Shown here: positions 2,749 to 12,192 of the stretch, piece by piece
How the letters are laid out: each line of letters begins with the position of its first letter
Numbering within the stretch: the stretch's first letter is position 1
Translations under genes and position numbers: made by a program
Source of the DNA: Leeuwenhoekiella nanhaiensis
GTDB taxonomy: Bacteria > Bacteroidota > Bacteroidia > Flavobacteriales > Flavobacteriaceae
Direction: 5' to 3'
Length of the DNA stretch: 64,000 nucleotides
Assembly: GCF_002744755.1 (NCBI RefSeq)
Contig: NZ_KZ319287.1
Span: forward strand, 496,001-560,000
The notes under the pieces: model-generated
What the model was told of the DNA's origin: nothing
Seen by the model: the letters and a program-made list of their open reading frames with translations, nothing else
The model's database searches: none

Positions 2749-4545
2749 TTAATCTATGGGGATGTTGAGCACAATGCGTGTTCCCTTTCCCGGCTCCGAA
2801 TTTACGAAAAGTCTTCCGTTAATGTAGTTCATACGCTCGTGCATAAAGGTCATACCCATTCCGCCGCCTTCGCGGTTCTCAAGGTCAATTCCGGAAGGGT
2901 CAAAACCTTTGCCGTCGTCGTCTATGGTAATGCTGAGCATGCTTTTGCTGTGCCTTACGCTTACCATAATAATTTTAGAGCCTGCGTATTTTAAGGCGTT
3001 GTTGATTGCTTCCTGGGTAATGCGGTAGGTGTTAATCTCTACCAGACTGTCTAGCCTCAGGTTAAAATCGGTCTTGTTGTGCAATTGGATGTGCTTGCCG
3101 GTGAGGTTGCTGAGTTCTTTTGTGAGTTTTGCCAAAGCGGGAATAAGCCCATGGTCTGTAAGCTCAGGCGGAGTAAGGTTAAACGTGGCGGTGCGTATGC
3201 CTTTAATAATATCCAGCGAAAGGTTTTTAAGATGGGTGATTTTGGCCTGTGCCTTTTCAGGGTCTTTAAGGTCTATGCTTTCGAGTGTAAATTTAAGCCC
3301 CGTAAGCATCTGGCCAATGCCGTCGTGCAGATCACGCGCAATGCGGTTTTGCTCACGCTCCTGGTTTTCTATGATTTGGCGCGAAACGTTTTTCTGCTGG
3401 CTGATGCGCTCTTCAAAGTGGGATTTGGTAAGCCGTTCAATCTCATCATGTGCCTCTTTTCGCTTGGTGATGTCTATAAAAATGATGAGTAACTGATGAT
3501 TTTCTTTATGTTTTAAAAACGGAAGCAATGACATTTCAAAATAACGGCGGTTCCCTTCTTTTGGGGTGGCGCTGATCTCTCCCTGCCAGCCGGTGCGTTT
3601 GTGTTCGTTTAAAAGTTGCTCCAGACGCTGCTTTTCGGGCTCGTGGGTAGAGATAACATCAGAAAGTCTGGATTGAGTTTCGAGATTTTTGGGTTTAAAG
3701 AGTTTGATAAAGGGGTCGCCCGCGTGCAGAATGTTTCCGTTGAGGTCTGTGCGTACAAAAAACAGGGTACGGTCCATCGCCTGGCTTAGTGCCTGGTATT
3801 CCCAAAGTAATTTTTCTTTAGATTCGGCTAAAGCGTCGGCGTCACGGGCCATTTTTTGAGCCTTTCGCTCTGCGGTAATAAGATCAAACATCCCGGTGCG
3901 TACCGCTTTCGCCGTAGGCCAAAAAATAAAAATGAATTCAGCCAAAAGAAGCAGTAAGGTAAGTCCCATTAGCAGGACCTCAAGGGTGCGCAACCGCTCA
4001 ATCTTGGCATCGGCCTCATATTGGTATTGATTTACAATACGGTCCATCAGCCTTAAAAACGGGGCTTCATTGGCCAAAATGGTGTTTAAAGCGCTGAGAC
4101 TGGTTACATCTGTAGTATTTTCTGCGGAAAGCAATTGTGCCGAAGCTGCGTAGACCGACTCAAAATACGGATTGATCTGATCAAAAAGCTGGTTGATGCG
4201 GGCTGTATTGACTGCCGGAATATGCAGGCTGTCACTGCCGTTTTGCAGCGCGAGATGGCTGTTGTGCCAAAGCGTGCGGGTGGCGCTCAGACTATCTTGC
4301 AGGGCCTGAATCTTCGCGCTGTCACTGGGGCGGGTGAGGAGCAGGGCTTCTTTGGTAATCTTTTGACTCAGCATACGCTGGCGCCCTGCGATGTTGATGA
4401 CGGTAGAGTCTGCCGTTTGATCGTTTAAAAATTTACGAACCAAAACCTGGCTTGCCACTACCGATAGCGCAATAAGGCTTAGTGCGATGATGTAAAGCTT
4501 CCGGAGTTTGGAAAAGGTTTTTTGGTCTAATGTGGCCATCTGCAA
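2749..4545 (-). CDS. Nitrate-sensor-like histidine kinase (PilJ/NIT-type sensor, PAS, HisKA_3)
   Basis: A 598-residue inner-membrane kinase. Two membrane segments (about 17-35 and 189-208) bracket a periplasmic helical sensor. Right after the first one comes DSTVINIAGRQRMLSQ (46-61), matching the P-box by which NarX-type sensors bind nitrate or nitrite, including the conserved Arg. A second related stretch lies near 163-185. A PAS-like domain spans about 255-365, and HisKA_3 carries RIARDLHDGIGQ with His407, followed by an HATPase domain (DDDGKGFDP, GGGMGM). The start is 3 bases after the DUF4202 stop. The kinase should phosphorylate the downstream NarL-type regulator. Nitrate sensing is a strong inference from the P-box and context. 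Confidence 0.9.
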   Translation of the reverse strand: MQMATLDQKTFSKLRKLYIIALSLIALSVVASQVLVRKFLNDQTADSTVINIAGRQRMLSQKITKEALLLTRPSDSAKIQALQDSLSATRTLWHNSHLALQNGSDSLHIPAVNTARINQLFDQINPYFESVYAASAQLLSAENTTDVTSLSALNTILANEAPFLRLMDRIVNQYQYEADAKIERLRTLEVLLMGLTLLLLLAEFIFIFWPTAKAVRTGMFDLITAERKAQKMARDADALAESKEKLLWEYQALSQAMDRTLFFVRTDLNGNILHAGDPFIKLFKPKNLETQSRLSDVISTHEPEKQRLEQLLNEHKRTGWQGEISATPKEGNRRYFEMSLLPFLKHKENHQLLIIFIDITKRKEAHDEIERLTKSHFEERISQQKNVSRQIIENQEREQNRIARDLHDGIGQMLTGLKFTLESIDLKDPEKAQAKITHLKNLSLDIIKGIRTATFNLTPPELTDHGLIPALAKLTKELSNLTGKHIQLHNKTDFNLRLDSLVEINTYRITQEAINNALKYAGSKIIMVSVRHSKSMLSITIDDDGKGFDPSGIDLENREGGGMGMTFMHERMNYINGRLFVNSEPGKGTRIVLNIPID

Positions 4546-5535: not shown

Positions 5536-8037
5536 TTACCAGGGGCGTGGCATTTTTTGATCCCGAAGCGACACAAATTCTACCGTGTCGTCTACGTCGT
5601 CTGAGTTTACAAAATGTTTAAATCGGGAGGCCAGTTTAGGATCTTCAATAGCCTGTTTCCACTCGCATTCGTATTTGTTTACAAGTCCCTGCATTTCGGT
5701 TTCGAGTTCTTCGGCGATGCCCAGACTGTCTTCAATAACTACCTGTTTCAGATACTCGATACCTCCGTCCAGTTTTTCAAGCCAGGGTGCTGTGCGCACT
5801 AAAGGACCTGACGTGCGTATGTAAAACATCAGGAAGCGATCAAGATATTTAATGCAGGTTGCATCATCCAGTTGCTCGGCCAGTAAAATGGCGTGTTTGG
5901 GAGTTGCCCCGCCATTACCGCATACGTAGAGATTCCATCCACCATCTACCGCAATGAGTCCAAAATCCTTGCCCCGGGCTTCGGCGCACTCGCGAATACA
6001 ACCGCTTACGCCGCCTTTCAGTTTGTGCGGGGAGCGTAAGCCACGATAGCGGTTTTCAATCTCGATAGCAAAGGAGACCGACTCGTGCATACCGTAACGG
6101 CACCAGGTTGAGCCTACACAACTTTTAACCGTACGCAGCGATTTTCCGTAGGCGTGACCACTCTCAAAGCCGGCGTCAATAAGTTCTTTCCAGATCAGCG
6201 GAAGCTCGTGAAGGCGCGCTCCAAAGAGGTCAATACGCTGACCGCCCGTAATTTTGGTGTACAGGTTGTATTTTTTGGCTACTTCACCCAAAACGATGAG
6301 TTTCTCGGGGCTGATCTCGCCACCGGCAACACGTGGAACTACCGAGTAGGTCCCGTTACGCTGTATATTGGCCAGAAAACGGTCGTTAGAATCCTGAATT
6401 ACCGGTTGTTTATTTGCCGTATCCATATAAACACTCGAGAAGATCGAGGCTATTACGGGTTTGCAAATTTCGCAACCGCAACCGCTACCCAGACGGGCAA
6501 GGGCCTCTTCGAAGGTCTTGATTAGTTTGATTTTGATCAGATCATAAAGCTCTTGGCGGTTGTATTTAAAATGCTCGCAAACGGTATCTTTTACTTCTTT
6601 ACCCAAAGCCTTAAGGGTCTCATTGACGAGGTCGACAACCATAGGCTTGCAGCCACCGCATCCGGTGGTGGCTTTGGTGCATTTTATTACGTCTTTAAGA
6701 TCAGAGCAGGTACCTTCTTCAATACTCTTGCATATACTTCCTTTTGAAACGCTTTCGCAGGAACAAATCTGAGCGGTATCGGGCAAATCGAGCACGCTGC
6801 CTAGGATATTGCTGTCTCCACCCCGGGAACCTAAAATAAGATCTTCGGGATTTAGGGGCAGCTTCATCGCATTATAGTAAATCTGAAACAGGCTGTTATA
6901 ATCGGAAGAGTCACCCACCAGAATACCACCGTACAAACGGGAACCATCGCGGGCAACATTGATGCGTTTATAAATGCCGTTGCGTTTGTTAACATAGGTG
7001 ATAGCTGCTACTTCTTCATTTTCTATAAAAGGATCTCCAAAGCTTGCCACTTCGGTGCCTATAAGCTTAAGCTGGGTAGACATATCAATTGAGGCAGCCA
7101 TACTTTTGCTGCCGTCTGTAAGTTGGTGTACTGCAACATCGGCCATTTCATATCCGGGAGCAACCAGCCCGTAAATACCATCATTATACAGGGCTACTTC
7201 GCCTATTGCATATACGTGTGAATCTGAGGTTTGCATTTTTTCATTGACTACAATGCCACCCCTTGGGCCAACCTGAATCCCACAGGCACGTGCCAGTTCA
7301 TCTCTGGGACGTATTCCTGCTGAAATGATTAGCATATCTACATCCAGATGGGTGTCATCTGCAAATTCCATACGTTCTATGGCTTCGTCCCCGGCAATTT
7401 GCTGGGTGGCTTTACTGAGGTGAATGCCTATACCCAGACTTTCTATTTTAGCCTGAAGTATCGCGCTTGCGGCATCGTCCAGTTGGCGTGGCATCAGGCG
7501 TGGTGCAAACTCAATCACATGGGCCTCAAGCCCCAGTTCTTTAGCGGCATTTGCGGCCTCAAGACCTAAAAGTCCACCCCCAAGAACAGCCGCTTTAGCA
7601 CCCGACTTAAGTTTGGCAGCGTAGGCCTTCATCGCATCGAGATCTTCAATGGTACGGTACACAAACACGCCCTTTTTATCTGCTCCTTTTATGGGTGGAA
7701 CAAATGGCGCTGAGCCTGTGGCCAGGATTAGGTTGTCGTATTCATATACGGCCTGCTTGTGAGTCGTTACCGTTTTAGCCTCCAGATCAATGGCGGTAAC
7801 CAGTTCTGAGGTGTGAAGTGCAATCCCTTTAGAGGCATACCAATCCCTGCCGGCGAGGAGGAGCTGGTCTGCGGTTTTATCACTAAAATATTCACTAAGG
7901 TGAACCCGGTCGTAAGCAGGACGCGGCTCTTCTCCAAAAACAACGACCTGAAAGGCCTCAAAATCAGGATGTGCAGCTAGTTTTTCGCAAAACTTATACC
8001 CTACCATTCCATTACCAATAACGATGACTTTTTTCAT
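5536..8037 (-). CDS. nirB: Nitrite reductase (NADH) large subunit
   Basis: An 833-residue enzyme (E. coli NirB is about 847) reducing nitrite to ammonium. Order of domains: an FAD/NAD-binding reductase (about 1-400; VIGNGMVGYKF, LATGSAPFVP, GGGLLGLEAA), a BFD-like 2Fe-2S domain with CSCESVSKGSIC and TTGCGGCKP (about 425-470), a second Cys motif GCGCEICKP near 520, a ferredoxin-like half domain, and the siroheme/4Fe-4S domain with CVGSTWC (C-x5-C) and SGCIREC (C-x3-C). It is complete and heads the nirB-nirD-DUF4202-kinase-regulator operon. Its promoter at 8057-8090 copies the narK arrangement. The electron donor is expected to be NADH. Confidence 0.96.
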   Translation of the reverse strand: MKKVIVIGNGMVGYKFCEKLAAHPDFEAFQVVVFGEEPRPAYDRVHLSEYFSDKTADQLLLAGRDWYASKGIALHTSELVTAIDLEAKTVTTHKQAVYEYDNLILATGSAPFVPPIKGADKKGVFVYRTIEDLDAMKAYAAKLKSGAKAAVLGGGLLGLEAANAAKELGLEAHVIEFAPRLMPRQLDDAASAILQAKIESLGIGIHLSKATQQIAGDEAIERMEFADDTHLDVDMLIISAGIRPRDELARACGIQVGPRGGIVVNEKMQTSDSHVYAIGEVALYNDGIYGLVAPGYEMADVAVHQLTDGSKSMAASIDMSTQLKLIGTEVASFGDPFIENEEVAAITYVNKRNGIYKRINVARDGSRLYGGILVGDSSDYNSLFQIYYNAMKLPLNPEDLILGSRGGDSNILGSVLDLPDTAQICSCESVSKGSICKSIEEGTCSDLKDVIKCTKATTGCGGCKPMVVDLVNETLKALGKEVKDTVCEHFKYNRQELYDLIKIKLIKTFEEALARLGSGCGCEICKPVIASIFSSVYMDTANKQPVIQDSNDRFLANIQRNGTYSVVPRVAGGEISPEKLIVLGEVAKKYNLYTKITGGQRIDLFGARLHELPLIWKELIDAGFESGHAYGKSLRTVKSCVGSTWCRYGMHESVSFAIEIENRYRGLRSPHKLKGGVSGCIRECAEARGKDFGLIAVDGGWNLYVCGNGGATPKHAILLAEQLDDATCIKYLDRFLMFYIRTSGPLVRTAPWLEKLDGGIEYLKQVVIEDSLGIAEELETEMQGLVNKYECEWKQAIEDPKLASRFKHFVNSDDVDDTVEFVSLRDQKMPRPW

Positions 8038-8257: not shown

Positions 8258-8274
8258 CGGGTAAAATTTACCCG
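8258..8274. promoter_or_regulatory. Enhancer palindrome upstream of the sensor operon
   Basis: CGGGTAAA-A-TTTACCCG is a perfect 17-bp inverted repeat. Its centre (8266) is 129 bases before the GC of the -24/-12 promoter, a usual distance for an activator site of a sigma-54 enhancer-binding protein. A sister palindrome sits at 11543-11559, and the activator gene lies between them. The binding protein is inferred. Confidence 0.75.
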
Positions 8275-8381
8275 ATACGCATAGCAATTACCCGGTTGAT
8301 TATTCGGTATGGAAATGAGAATTTTTTTTAAATATATGATAGTCAGTATTTTATTCTAAATTTCAAATTCTTGCGATCTTT

Positions 8382-8397
8382 TGGAGGAATAGTTGCT
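8382..8397 (+). promoter_or_regulatory. Sigma-54 (-24/-12) promoter of the sensor operon
   Basis: TGG at 8382-8384 and TTGCT at 8393-8397 put the invariant GG (8383-8384) and GC (8395-8396) exactly 10 bases apart. This fits TGGCACG-N4-TTGCW in the key bases. The GGAGGA inside it could be mistaken for a ribosome-binding site for a TTG at 8393. As a promoter it predicts a transcript start near 8408, and so an ATG start at 8426. Confidence 0.7.
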
Positions 8398-8425
8398 AAC
8401 TAATGAGAAACTTAAATCTCTAGTA

Positions 8426-9052
8426 ATGGCTAAGTCTTTAAATACCGCCCGTCGTATTAATACCATTTTGGCACTGGCTGTGGTTTTTCTGCTCGTTTTG
8501 GCTACAAATCGCATTGATCAGCATCACTTTAAAACCGCTCAGGCCAACATGAATGAGGTGTTTGAAGACCGGGTGCTGGTGCAGGATTACATTTTTTCAA
8601 TTTCGCGGGAATTGCATACCAGGCAAATGAAACTCTACGGTGCTGTGCTGCAAACCACGAATTCAGGTTCTGAACAAACAGAGAACGTTTCTCAGATTCT
8701 TTCCAAATTTGAAGCGACCAAGCTTACACCGGCCGAATACAATCTGCTTAAACAGTTTAAAAGCGATTTCAGTACTCTGGAAGGGCTTGATCGAAACCCT
8801 TCAACACAGACTGATGTTCAACTCCGGAAACGAAAAAGTGACCAACTCGCTGCCCTTCAGCAAAATTTGCTGGAGCTGAGTGAAATTCAGGTACGCGAAA
8901 GCAGGCGTCTTACCCGAGAGTCCCAAAAATCCCTTGATGTAAGTAATCTGCTGGCGAACTTGGAGATTTTCTTTTTGATCGTCATCGGGATCGCCCTGCA
9001 GGTACTTATTTTTTATAAATCGAAAAAGCTCGCGAAACAAAGCGCTGCTTAG
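8426..9052 (+). CDS. Membrane four-helix-bundle sensor protein (MCP-like, no output domain)
   Basis: With the ATG at 8426 the protein has 208 residues. A membrane segment near 12-30 and another near 178-197 flank a helical periplasmic domain that looks like the four-helix-bundle sensor of chemoreceptors. Only a short basic tail follows, so there is no kinase or methyl-accepting domain. The frame extends upstream to a TTG at 8393, but that codon lies inside the -12 element and the predicted transcript starts after it, so I prefer 8426. The next genes encode a soluble kinase and its activator, suggesting this protein is the detached receptor. The ligand is unknown. Confidence 0.75.
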   Translation: MAKSLNTARRINTILALAVVFLLVLATNRIDQHHFKTAQANMNEVFEDRVLVQDYIFSISRELHTRQMKLYGAVLQTTNSGSEQTENVSQILSKFEATKLTPAEYNLLKQFKSDFSTLEGLDRNPSTQTDVQLRKRKSDQLAALQQNLLELSEIQVRESRRLTRESQKSLDVSNLLANLEIFFLIVIGIALQVLIFYKSKKLAKQSAA

Positions 9053-9138
9053 GATAGGAGCACACGGGTATTTTAAGGCTAAAGTTTTGGTCTTACACAA
9101 ACAGGATGTTTAACTTAGACGATCTCTAAGATCGGCTT

Positions 9139-10233
9139 ATGAACAGCATAGAAGCAGCTTTGAAAGAACGTATAAAAGAATTGACCTGCCTGTATGAGGT
9201 TTCTTCCATTTTGGTAAATGCTGATGAGACCAATCACGAGGAAACCTACAGCAGTATTGCGCAAAGTATCAAGATTGGATTTCAATATCCGGAAGATACC
9301 GAAGTGGTCATTGAACAGGGGACGTTTTCCGTAAAGACCGGAAGCATAAAAACCGATAAAAAGCTCAGCAGCGCCATTCAGCTTTTTAAAAAACAGGCCG
9401 GTTCCATCTGTGTATATCTCAACAAAACCGAACTTGATTTTTTACCGGAAGAGCAGCCGCTTATAGACAACATTGCTTTAAAAATAGGTGACTATCTCGA
9501 GCGTTTGGCGATCAAACAAAACGAGTTGCTGCTGCGGCAGCAGATGGAGCACGCAGACCGGCTTACGATTATTGGCGAACTCACCGCCGGTATTGCACAC
9601 GAGTTAAATACGCCGCTTGCAAATATTCTGGGCTTCGCCGAATTGTTACGCGATAACCTGAGTGATCACGATCCTGCTGTTTCCGACGTAGATAAAATCA
9701 TCAAAAACGCTATGTTTTCGCGTGAGGTGGTCAAAAAACTGATGTTTTTTGCGCACGCCATTCCACAGGAAAAAAGGGAAGTGAACATTATCCCGGTAGT
9801 ACGGGATGCACTCGATTTGCTCGATGCCGCTTTTAAGAAAGAACAGGTGCGATATGATTTTTATGCAGAACAGGACCCCATTAAGCTCAAGGTAGATGCG
9901 GTGCAACTGACTCAAATAATCATAAATTTGGTGATTAACGCGATCTACTTTTCCCCTAAAAAAGGCCTTGTGGGCATTAAGATTACACAGCAGGATGAAG
10001 ACGTGGTCTTTGAAATCAGCGATGAAGGACCGGGGCTCAGCCCGGAAGCGCTGGAGAAAGTTTTTCAGCCGTTTTTTACCACCAAGCCCACGGGTGAAGG
10101 CTCAGGTCTTGGTTTAAGTGTGGTGCACGGGATTGTAACCAGCCATAACGGAAGTATAACGGCTCAAAACAGGCCAGATCAGGGTGCGCTTTTTACCGTG
10201 CGCCTGCCCAAAGACGAATATGCAATTAAATAA
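9139..10233 (+). CDS. Soluble sensor histidine kinase (NtrB-like partner of sigma-54 activator)
   Basis: A 364-residue kinase without membrane segments. An N-terminal GAF-like region (about 1-125) is followed by a linker helix, then HisKA with GELTAGIAHELNTPLANILG (phospho-His near 154), and an HATPase domain with N-box NLVINAI, G1 DEGPGL and G2 GEGSGLGLSVV. It follows the membrane sensor gene by 86 bases and overlaps the activator gene by 14 bases, which points to translational coupling. The membrane protein upstream probably supplies signal input, since this kinase has no transmembrane sensor of its own; that link is inference. It should phosphorylate the receiver of the next gene product. 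Confidence 0.92.
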   Translation: MNSIEAALKERIKELTCLYEVSSILVNADETNHEETYSSIAQSIKIGFQYPEDTEVVIEQGTFSVKTGSIKTDKKLSSAIQLFKKQAGSICVYLNKTELDFLPEEQPLIDNIALKIGDYLERLAIKQNELLLRQQMEHADRLTIIGELTAGIAHELNTPLANILGFAELLRDNLSDHDPAVSDVDKIIKNAMFSREVVKKLMFFAHAIPQEKREVNIIPVVRDALDLLDAAFKKEQVRYDFYAEQDPIKLKVDAVQLTQIIINLVINAIYFSPKKGLVGIKITQQDEDVVFEISDEGPGLSPEALEKVFQPFFTTKPTGEGSGLGLSVVHGIVTSHNGSITAQNRPDQGALFTVRLPKDEYAIK

Positions 10234-11542
10234 AGAAAACATATTAATTGTAGACGATGATCTGCATATTTTAGAACTGATTCAGCGGCATCTGCACCGC
10301 TGGAATTACCATACCTATCGTGCAGTTTCGGTTAAGGAAGCGGTGAATATTCTTAGGGATTCGCAGGTCGATTTGTTGATCACCGATTTAAAAATGCCGC
10401 AGATTGACGGCTTTGAACTCATCAAATTTGTTTCTGAGCATTATCCCGATTTGCCCAAGCTTATCGTAACCGGTTTTCCTTCGGTACAGGATTCCCTCAA
10501 GGCTATTAAGTCTGGCGTGGCCGAATATCTGACGAAGCCTTTTACACGCGACGAACTCGAAGAGGCCGTTACCAAAGCACTTTCGGCTTCCCGTGCAAAA
10601 CCTAAAAAACCAACTCAACCGGTGCAGCGCGATGCGTATGGCGAAATCATTGGTTCTTCAGAAGAAATGAACGAGGTTCTTGAGGTGATCGACCGGGTTA
10701 AAGACAATAAGGCTACGCTCTACATTAGTGGCGAAAGCGGCACCGGAAAAGAACTGGTTGCCCGTGCCGTACATTATCAGGGTAAGTTTGCCGCGGCTCC
10801 CTTTGTGCCCGTGAATTGCGGTGGAATCCCAGAGACTTTACTGGAGGCTGAATTGTTCGGCTACAAAAAAGGAGCCTTTACCGGGGCAGAAAAAGATCGT
10901 AAAGGCGCATTTCAGTCCGCACAGGGTGGGACTATTTTTTTAGATGAAATCGGGAACGCTTCATTGGCTGTACAGGCTCGTTTGCTAAGGGTCTTACAGG
11001 AAAAGGAGGTGACTCCACTGGGTTCGCACAAACCCGAAAAAATTGATGTACGGGTCATCGCGGCTACAAATAATGATCTGGCCGAGATGATCAGAAAGGA
11101 AACCTTCCGGGAAGATTTGTATTACCGCCTGAGTGTGGTGGAGATTCATATTCCGTCCCTGCGCAAACGCATGACAGACCTGCCGCTACTGGTAGATAAG
11201 TTTTTGCTCAAATACGGTTTAGAATACAAAGACCGTTACCTGAAAATAGAACCCGAAGCCTTAGAAGTGCTGAAACGCTATTCCTGGCCGGGCAACATCA
11301 GGGAGCTTGAGAATGTGGTGCAGCGCGCGGTGATTATGTGTGATAAAAGCATACAGGTTAAAGACCTTCCCGATCATTTAAAGTATGCTATTGATATGCC
11401 GGAAGATACACTTACCTCTCTCGCTGAAATGGAGCATAAGTACATCAAAAAAGTGCTTCGGGCTACCGGAAACAACAAAACCAAAGCTGCAGAAATTCTT
11501 CAGATCACCCGAAAAACACTACGCGAAAAGCTTAAGGATTAG
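10220..11542 (+). CDS. NtrC-family sigma-54 activator (response regulator)
   Basis: Starting at the ATG at 10220 (MQLNKENILIVDDD) the protein has 440 residues; the frame runs further upstream but only inside the kinase gene. Domains: receiver (about 5-120, Asp in LLITDLKMPQ), AAA+ sigma-54 activator (about 145-365) with Walker A GESGTGKE, the GAFTGA loop that contacts sigma-54, Walker B GGTIFLDEIG, and a Fis-type helix-turn-helix at the C-terminus (NNKTKAAEILQITRKTLREKL). It should activate -24/-12 promoters. Two such promoters, each with the same palindrome upstream, flank this operon, making it the likely regulator of its own operon and of the gene at 11732. Confidence 0.95.
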   Translation: MQLNKENILIVDDDLHILELIQRHLHRWNYHTYRAVSVKEAVNILRDSQVDLLITDLKMPQIDGFELIKFVSEHYPDLPKLIVTGFPSVQDSLKAIKSGVAEYLTKPFTRDELEEAVTKALSASRAKPKKPTQPVQRDAYGEIIGSSEEMNEVLEVIDRVKDNKATLYISGESGTGKELVARAVHYQGKFAAAPFVPVNCGGIPETLLEAELFGYKKGAFTGAEKDRKGAFQSAQGGTIFLDEIGNASLAVQARLLRVLQEKEVTPLGSHKPEKIDVRVIAATNNDLAEMIRKETFREDLYYRLSVVEIHIPSLRKRMTDLPLLVDKFLLKYGLEYKDRYLKIEPEALEVLKRYSWPGNIRELENVVQRAVIMCDKSIQVKDLPDHLKYAIDMPEDTLTSLAEMEHKYIKKVLRATGNNKTKAAEILQITRKTLREKLKD

Positions 11543-11559
11543 CGGGTAATTCTTACCCG
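11543..11559. promoter_or_regulatory. Enhancer palindrome upstream of the small secreted gene
   Basis: CGGGTAA-TTC-TTACCCG is a perfect inverted repeat starting right after the activator's stop codon. Its centre (11551) is 131 bases before the GC of the -12 element at 11682, almost the same as the 129 bases seen upstream of 8382. The shared arms are CGGGTAA and TTACCCG. Confidence 0.75.
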
Positions 11560-11595
11560 GCCGGATCTTTTTTACGCACATGCTGTAAATTCTGT

Positions 11596-11626
11596 TTTCA
11601 GCTTATTTAAAAATAAGTTGCTGAAA
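11596..11626. other. Hairpin between enhancer and sigma-54 promoter
   Basis: TTTCAGC (11596-11602) pairs with GCTGAAA (11620-11626), and TTATTT (11603-11608) with AAATAA (11611-11616), leaving a 3-base bulge. It may end the activator transcript. There is no strong T run after it, so the terminator role is uncertain. Confidence 0.4.
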
Positions 11627-11668
11627 TTCAATAATTTATAATTTTATTCGGCTAAATGGCCCAGGTAG

Positions 11669-11684
11669 TGGCATACGGCTTGCT
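11669..11684 (+). promoter_or_regulatory. Sigma-54 (-24/-12) promoter of the small secreted gene
   Basis: TGGCAT at 11669-11674 and TTGCT at 11680-11684 place GG (11670-11671) and GC (11682-11683) 10 bases apart. This is a close match to TGGCACG-N4-TTGCW. The transcript would start near 11695, giving a leader of about 37 bases before the ATG at 11732. Confidence 0.82.
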
Positions 11685-11731
11685 CTTTAGATGGTATTAC
11701 ATCTAGTAAGTAACCTTAAAAAAATAGTCGT

Positions 11732-12100
11732 ATGAAAACATTTATAGCAATTGCCGCAATGGCACTGGGATTAACAACTCTACAGGCACAAAACACGTGT
11801 GAAACTCCGCAATTAAAAGCAGGCGATGTGATTAAGATCGCAAGCCCTTCGCACGCTACCTACTCGCACATCAACTTCCCCAAAAGTAATTTTATCATCA
11901 AGCGAGGGGGAATAGCCAATCATAAATCGCTAATCAACAAAGAGGTTGAGGTAACCGAAGTAAAAATGGAAAACGGATGCGTTGCTCAGATCGAAGTAAA
12001 ACTCAAGGACGGCAAGAAGTTTTTTAATGTGGTGCGTGAGGTAAGCATCGATGTGGAAGATGCCCTGGCTGCCGGAGAAATCAGGCTATTAAAATCCTAA
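11732..12100 (+). CDS. Small secreted protein under predicted sigma-54 control
   Basis: A 122-residue protein starting with a signal peptide (MKTFIAIAAMALGLTTLQAQ, cleavage likely after TLQAQ), so it should be exported. The mature part of about 100 residues has only two cysteines (CETPQ and ENGCVAQ), which could form a disulfide, and alternating beta-type stretches (VIKIASPSH, KEVEVTEVKM, IEVKLKDGKKF). I do not recognise the family. It has its own -24/-12 promoter and enhancer palindrome and is followed by a strong terminator, so it is a one-gene unit and the most likely output of the adjoining regulatory system. Its job is unknown; it may act in the envelope response that the membrane sensor monitors. 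Confidence 0.85.
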   Translation: MKTFIAIAAMALGLTTLQAQNTCETPQLKAGDVIKIASPSHATYSHINFPKSNFIIKRGGIANHKSLINKEVEVTEVKMENGCVAQIEVKLKDGKKFFNVVREVSIDVEDALAAGEIRLLKS

Positions 12101-12145
12101 CGAAAATTGGTGACGTAAAGTGATTAGTTCTTTGCGTATAATAGA

Positions 12146-12175
12146 AACCCGCTAATATTAGGTAATTAGCGGGTT
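12146..12175. terminator. Bidirectional terminator
   Basis: AACCCGCTAAT (12146-12156) pairs with ATTAGCGGGTT (12165-12175) over an 8-base loop and is followed by TTTTCTTGTTTT. It lies between the convergent genes at 11732 and 12193. Confidence 0.88.
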
Positions 12176-12192
12176 TTCTTGTTTTATAGCAT

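Follow-up and report, generated by a model that had tools for sequence, protein, structure and literature searches.

In the NtrB-NtrC system, the activator uses tandem upstream sites at a -24/-12 promoter, and enhancers of the NtrC type are generally held to be movable. The ZraS-ZraR-ZraP system of Escherichia coli comprises a kinase and an NtrC-type activator with a small regulon, which includes their own operon and the gene of a small exported protein. According to excerpts of PMC7657598, ZraR binds upstream of zraSR and zraP, and mgtA is a further direct target. For Flavobacterium psychrophilum, a member of the same family as the organism studied here, excerpts of PMC9723704 report -24/-12 promoters derived from mapped starts, one of them confirmed by mutagenesis, and for this reason working promoters of this class are supported in Flavobacteriaceae. 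The F. psychrophilum sigma-54 regulon also shares the themes of envelope stress and exported proteins with the present locus, but neither an activator of this kind nor the palindrome or the target operon is mentioned in the excerpts. Glutamate dehydrogenase is a main sigma-54 target in Bacillota according to excerpts of PMC12316311, a study of predicted targets across phyla, and the same excerpts contain no description of the activator or site reported below for Flavobacteriia. Among the matches listed in a search of the open-access literature, no description of this activator, its site or its target set was found.

The window, that is, the whole stretch of 64,000 nucleotides of the Leeuwenhoekiella nanhaiensis genome that was analysed, carries the genes S (8426-9052), K (9139-10233), R (10220-11542) and P (11732-12100), all on the forward strand. 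The S product (208 aa) has two membrane segments recognised by eye and a 4HB_MCP_1-like domain (E 1.2e-5, 25.4 bits, with the Pfam gathering cut-off at 27); no transmitter domain was found in it by the Pfam domain search. K is a histidine kinase of 364 aa with HisKA and HATPase_c domains, in which no membrane segment was seen by eye and no PAS domain was found by the Pfam search. R, with 440 aa, belongs to the NtrC family by its Response_reg, Sigma54_activat and HTH_8 domains (PF00072, PF00158 and PF02954, all over cut-off) and by the GAFTGA motif in the Sigma54_activat domain. P (122 aa) begins with a signal-peptide-like stretch, as judged by eye. Its predicted structure, of low confidence (mean pLDDT 65), resembles SH3-like barrels weakly; none of the Foldseek matches reaches E 0.001, and the fold was dropped as a functional clue. 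P is probably a single-gene unit, since a terminator-like hairpin follows it (12144-12177, forward strand); no terminator-like site is listed on that strand between S and K.

The locus resembles ZraSR-ZraP in its kinase, its NtrC-type activator and its putative small regulon of the own operon and a gene for a small exported protein, and the circuit would work like that system, but it fails the curated score tests (153 against a cut-off of 479 for ZraS and 378 against 760 for ZraR), and its spacing constraint may be unusual. Unlike in ZraSR, the kinase and the membrane protein are two distinct products, K and S, and P, unlike ZraP, matches no Pfam or NCBIfam family at E up to 0.1. Glutamate dehydrogenase stands behind R in 67 of the 85 relatives of the locus, a difference from ZraSR but a point in common with NtrB-NtrC, which also shares the domain order of R and the tandem upstream sites at a -24/-12 promoter. 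However, R scores 404 against the 559 of the NtrC equivalog model, and K has no detectable PAS domain. AtoS gives the best NCBIfam score for K and AtoC the second best for R, but both are far below the cut-off (180 of 646 and 392 of 714, respectively).

The sigma-54 -24 consensus consists of GG followed by C and A. Both -24/-12 elements of the original prediction are present as GG-N10-GC on the forward strand: the S promoter at 8382-8397 (TGGAGGAATAGTTGCT), with a start expected near 8408, and the P promoter at 11669-11684 (TGGCATACGGCTTGCT), with a start expected near 11695. The latter is near consensus (promoter score 19.5), and the former keeps GG and TTGC without the C and A after GG (16.3). 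By the GG-N10-GC pattern, the consensus neighbours and the conserved upstream sites, both can be classed as sigma-54-dependent promoters, the S promoter being off consensus next to GG. RpoN is encoded in the same genome, about 10.6 kb past the end of the window (G000:C1:570559-571032). The strict -24/-12 pattern has five matches in the whole genome against 16 for the reversed control. One of the five is the P promoter. Three others (L113, L115 and L116) look coding or unassigned by eye and were rejected as targets. So was L117 (G000:C9:37794-37809), an element between genes upstream of a presumably SIMPL-like protein, but without the palindrome; this element may serve another activator.

Upstream of each promoter stands an exact CGGGTAA-N3-TTACCCG palindrome, at 8258-8274 for S (CGGGTAAAATTTACCCG) and at 11543-11559 for P (CGGGTAATTCTTACCCG), the first base of the second one directly following the R stop codon. 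The predicted distances of 129 and 131 bases hold when counted from the palindrome centre to the G of GC; with the first base of the palindrome as reference, the values become 137 and 139. Each palindrome is followed by a degenerate copy that had been overlooked: at 8278-8294 on the S side (3 mismatches, 20 bases downstream, centre 109 bases from GC) and at 11562-11578 on the P side (5 mismatches, 19 bases downstream). Seven matches with at most 3 mismatches occur in the window against 2.1 expected, and none of 100 shuffles reaches seven.

In the whole genome (4.37 Mb), the palindrome occurs twice without mismatch, never with one mismatch and 20 times with two, whereas the reversed control palindrome has 12 matches with at most two mismatches and 0.016 exact copies are expected by chance (arithmetic). 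The genome-wide search that had been proposed as a check thus returned, with 0-1 mismatch, the two window sites only. A joint enhancer and promoter test around the 20 two-mismatch sites (19 stretches; 159,638 bases, both strands) gave seven weak matches, none convincing as far as they were placed on genes: the best of the seven (L092), the one that was so placed, lies within a reading frame in antisense orientation, and these palindromes were rejected as further targets. Across 13 genomes of the genus, a broad consensus matched only the same two sites in the window genome and their two counterparts in G004, with no match in the remaining 11, so the strong form of the palindrome is confined to the closest species; outside them, it is degenerate. 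With two credible targets found, the window species offers a simple case and is therefore a good test object.

Relatives were collected from 299 sampled genomes of the family, 69 of which contain K (E up to 1e-60; 70 matches). Of these K loci, 56 were taken; the other 14 belonged to the window genus, to a genus represented by another member, or to the loci included before. Together with loci from two further searches, one of them of named records, this gave 88 loci with R, the window included; counts on 85 loci leave out the window and the two closest loci. The genome sets overlap in part (L032 is G004 and L033 is G002) and are only partly dereplicated. The closest named record is L. parthenopeia, whose R is 97% identical.

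In the 330 bases after R, a promoter score of at least 17 was found in 57 of the 88 loci, an enhancer with at most 4 mismatches in 58, and both in 41. Among 86 site-promoter pairs from 86 loci, 31 were spaced at 108-115 and 30 at 128-131 bases; a control of fourfold coding DNA yielded one pair. The two distance classes, near 109 and near 129, reflect a tandem pair of sites with an offset of 19-20 bases. The joint unit, an enhancer near 109 or 129 with a -24/-12 element, stands after R in 64/85 loci against 10/1700 shuffles, a count that describes more than it tests, since these loci had already been viewed when the relaxed consensus and both distance windows were fixed. With a consensus from the window only (at most 4 mismatches), and still with the same distance windows, it was found in 51/85 loci against 0/850 shuffles. 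At a loose cut-off, both tandem positions are occupied in 60 of the 64 passing loci. Among the 21 failing loci are two of the window genus, L063 and L068, in which R is followed by other genes, and some, for example L040 and L042, that have a good promoter with the site at a different distance. The loss of the palindromes from close relatives that keep the operon, which had been named as speaking against the original prediction, was not seen: exact copies of both are present in the nearest species (L032), and the species next to it (L033) has weaker ones at 128 and 131. RpoN is encoded in the genome and this geometry recurs after R in many genera, which supports the predicted sigma-54 circuit, an activator operon flanked by its own two matched enhancer/promoter units.

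An A+T-rich hairpin, possibly the terminator of the S-K-R transcript, lies between the enhancer and the P promoter (11584-11640, forward strand; z -3.4, the stretch having been picked by eye). Hairpins between enhancer and promoter, terminator-like, were also noticed in three relatives (L040:6392-6460, L042:6400-6465 and L034:6395-6455; stretches chosen by eye). Because of this position of the hairpins, the enhancer may sit inside the R transcript, parted from the promoter by a transcription stop. The same hairpins could be taken to mean that the palindromes are an RNA or terminator element or, palindromes also being typical of repressor sites, the operator of an unrelated repressor, with coincidental -24/-12 matches. 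The fixed distance to the -24/-12 element in many genera, the tandem phasing of 19-20 bases and the linkage to a sigma-54 activator make this very improbable.

The identity of the binding protein is suggested by linkage: the putative enhancers adjoin R in many genera. The helix-turn-helix core of R, NK-KAA-IL-I-RKT, is much alike in the orthologs, 34 of 88 matching the strict pattern and the remaining 54 being judged by eye; this pattern was used since conservation of the C-terminus without alignment was uninformative owing to differing lengths. The genome encodes four strong sigma-54 activators, R among them, plus five weak matches, so that one of the three other strong Sigma54_activat proteins might use these sites instead of R. 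However, the sites are absent before 40 P genes unlinked to K, and among the three others (L118, L120 and L121), L120, the one whose end was read, has a different helix-turn-helix; it is highly improbable that an activator other than R is responsible. The 40 unlinked P genes comprise 20 of the 22 listed in genomes with K and one from each of 20 genomes, out of 56 that contain P but give no K match at E 1e-60, and the joint unit was found in 0/20 of either set. They were read only after the joint criterion had been fixed and were rejected as extra targets.

It seems, with a probability of about 0.8, that the locus represents a ZraSR-like sigma-54 two-component circuit that is widespread in Flavobacteriaceae, with R acting on tandem sites at the S and P promoters. 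K would phosphorylate R, as its domains suggest. Active R would then bind the two tandem sites, approximately YGGGKAA-N3-TTMCCCR, whose centres lie about 129 and 109 bases before the GC of the -12 element, loop the DNA and open sigma-54 RNA polymerase at the -24/-12 promoter. In this genome, R would serve the two promoters found, before P and before S. The transcript from the latter would run through K and R, giving positive autoregulation, and the circuit would have S and P as its products, located in the membrane or exported.

The label of sensor, given to S in the original prediction, is not supported by the comparison, although those of a kinase and a GAFTGA activator for the rest of the operon are. 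S-like proteins (E up to 1e-8) occur in 35/299 genomes, 19 of them with K, and at this threshold S was not found in 50 of the 69 K genomes. At 200 bits or more, S is present in 16 genomes, 13 with K. S is associated with K (Fisher p 1.8e-5, uncorrected for relatedness). Its placement varies: it stands before K or before NhaA-K-R, forms a unit of its own together with NhaA, or follows P (6 loci). Of the 18 S loci, 9 have an S upstream region that passes a slightly looser joint test, including the window and its two nearest species; among these nine, L251 has no GG at -24, and L089 is below the promoter cut-off of the 85-locus test. Because of its absence from most K genomes at that threshold, its varying placement and the unit before it in half of the S loci, S is probably more like a target gene than a sensor; a feedback or accessory sensing role remains compatible with this pattern. 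S and P are not always targets: in G323 (L280), P and S form a pair that is unlinked to K, and no unit precedes P there.

Several observations concern the surroundings of S. An NhaA-type Na+/H+ antiporter gene lies between S and K in L058, L064, L238, L193 and L201, which hints at an ionic or pH signal. In L063 (G007), a partial second copy of R (3781-4248; residues 247-434, 37% identical) is placed between two S copies. A link to nitrogen through the divergent neighbour nirB (5536-8037) was weighed and then abandoned, there being no nirB match in the L033 locus; part of a nirB match was found near S in L239 (G003), so its absence from L033 is not decisive.

Positive autoregulation, the second element of the original prediction to need revision, would follow from S standing before K. 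In the window it requires the presumed co-transcription of S with K and R, and it is not general: the joint unit was found in 1 of 70 regions upstream of kinase-first operons, which had been viewed earlier with looser cut-offs. The remaining 69, the off-consensus -24 element of the S promoter (16.3 against 19.5 for P) and seven loci of the genus failing the joint test before S (L081, L082, L084, L086, L087, L088 and L090) would suit a different reading, in which the P unit is real and S-K-R is transcribed mainly from another promoter, the S unit adding little and autoregulation being weak or absent. We consider this unlikely: the distal S palindrome is exact and has the same distance as in the P unit, two of the nine passing S regions come from other genera (L251 and L255), and the window and its two nearest species all retain GG-N10-GC in the S promoter. 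In L250, tandem palindromes can be seen by eye before S, although the joint test is not passed.

The gene content behind the R-side promoter also qualifies the predicted dedicated output. P is alone there in the window, as predicted, but this is lineage-specific: within the stretches available for the 85 related loci, besides the frequent glutamate dehydrogenase, P was found downstream of R in 26, S in 6 and an ApbE-like protein in 5, and the 40 tested P copies unlinked to K lack the unit. A GreA/GreB-domain protein and two small family-less proteins often follow. The gene names ApbE and DUF3570 are those we presume from reading the sequences. In L062 and L058, a very short reading frame, Cys-rich in L062 as judged by eye, is located just behind the promoter. 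Glutamate dehydrogenase (E up to 1e-100) is present in 7 of 13 genomes of the window genus; no close relative of it was found in the window genome, where the best match is 33% identical. Compared with most relatives, the window locus is thus reduced: only P follows the promoter, glutamate dehydrogenase having been lost from this place.

By analogy with the logic of ZraSR and ZraP, the job of the circuit might be a response to envelope or ionic stress; this is the weakest step of the proposal, and we hold it only tentatively. Similarly speculative, with the odds somewhat against it, is the idea that the K-R system uses a rigid enhancer, in which the tandem R sites keep set distances of about 129 and 109 bases from the -12 GC across many genera and form a loop of fixed geometry, and that gene shuffling (S coming before K, glutamate dehydrogenase being lost) rewires a target operon into an autoregulatory loop. 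The strict spacing questions whether sigma-54 enhancers are always as free to move as is generally held. The predicted site, promoter, activator and targets together would constitute a testable regulon for Flavobacteriaceae.
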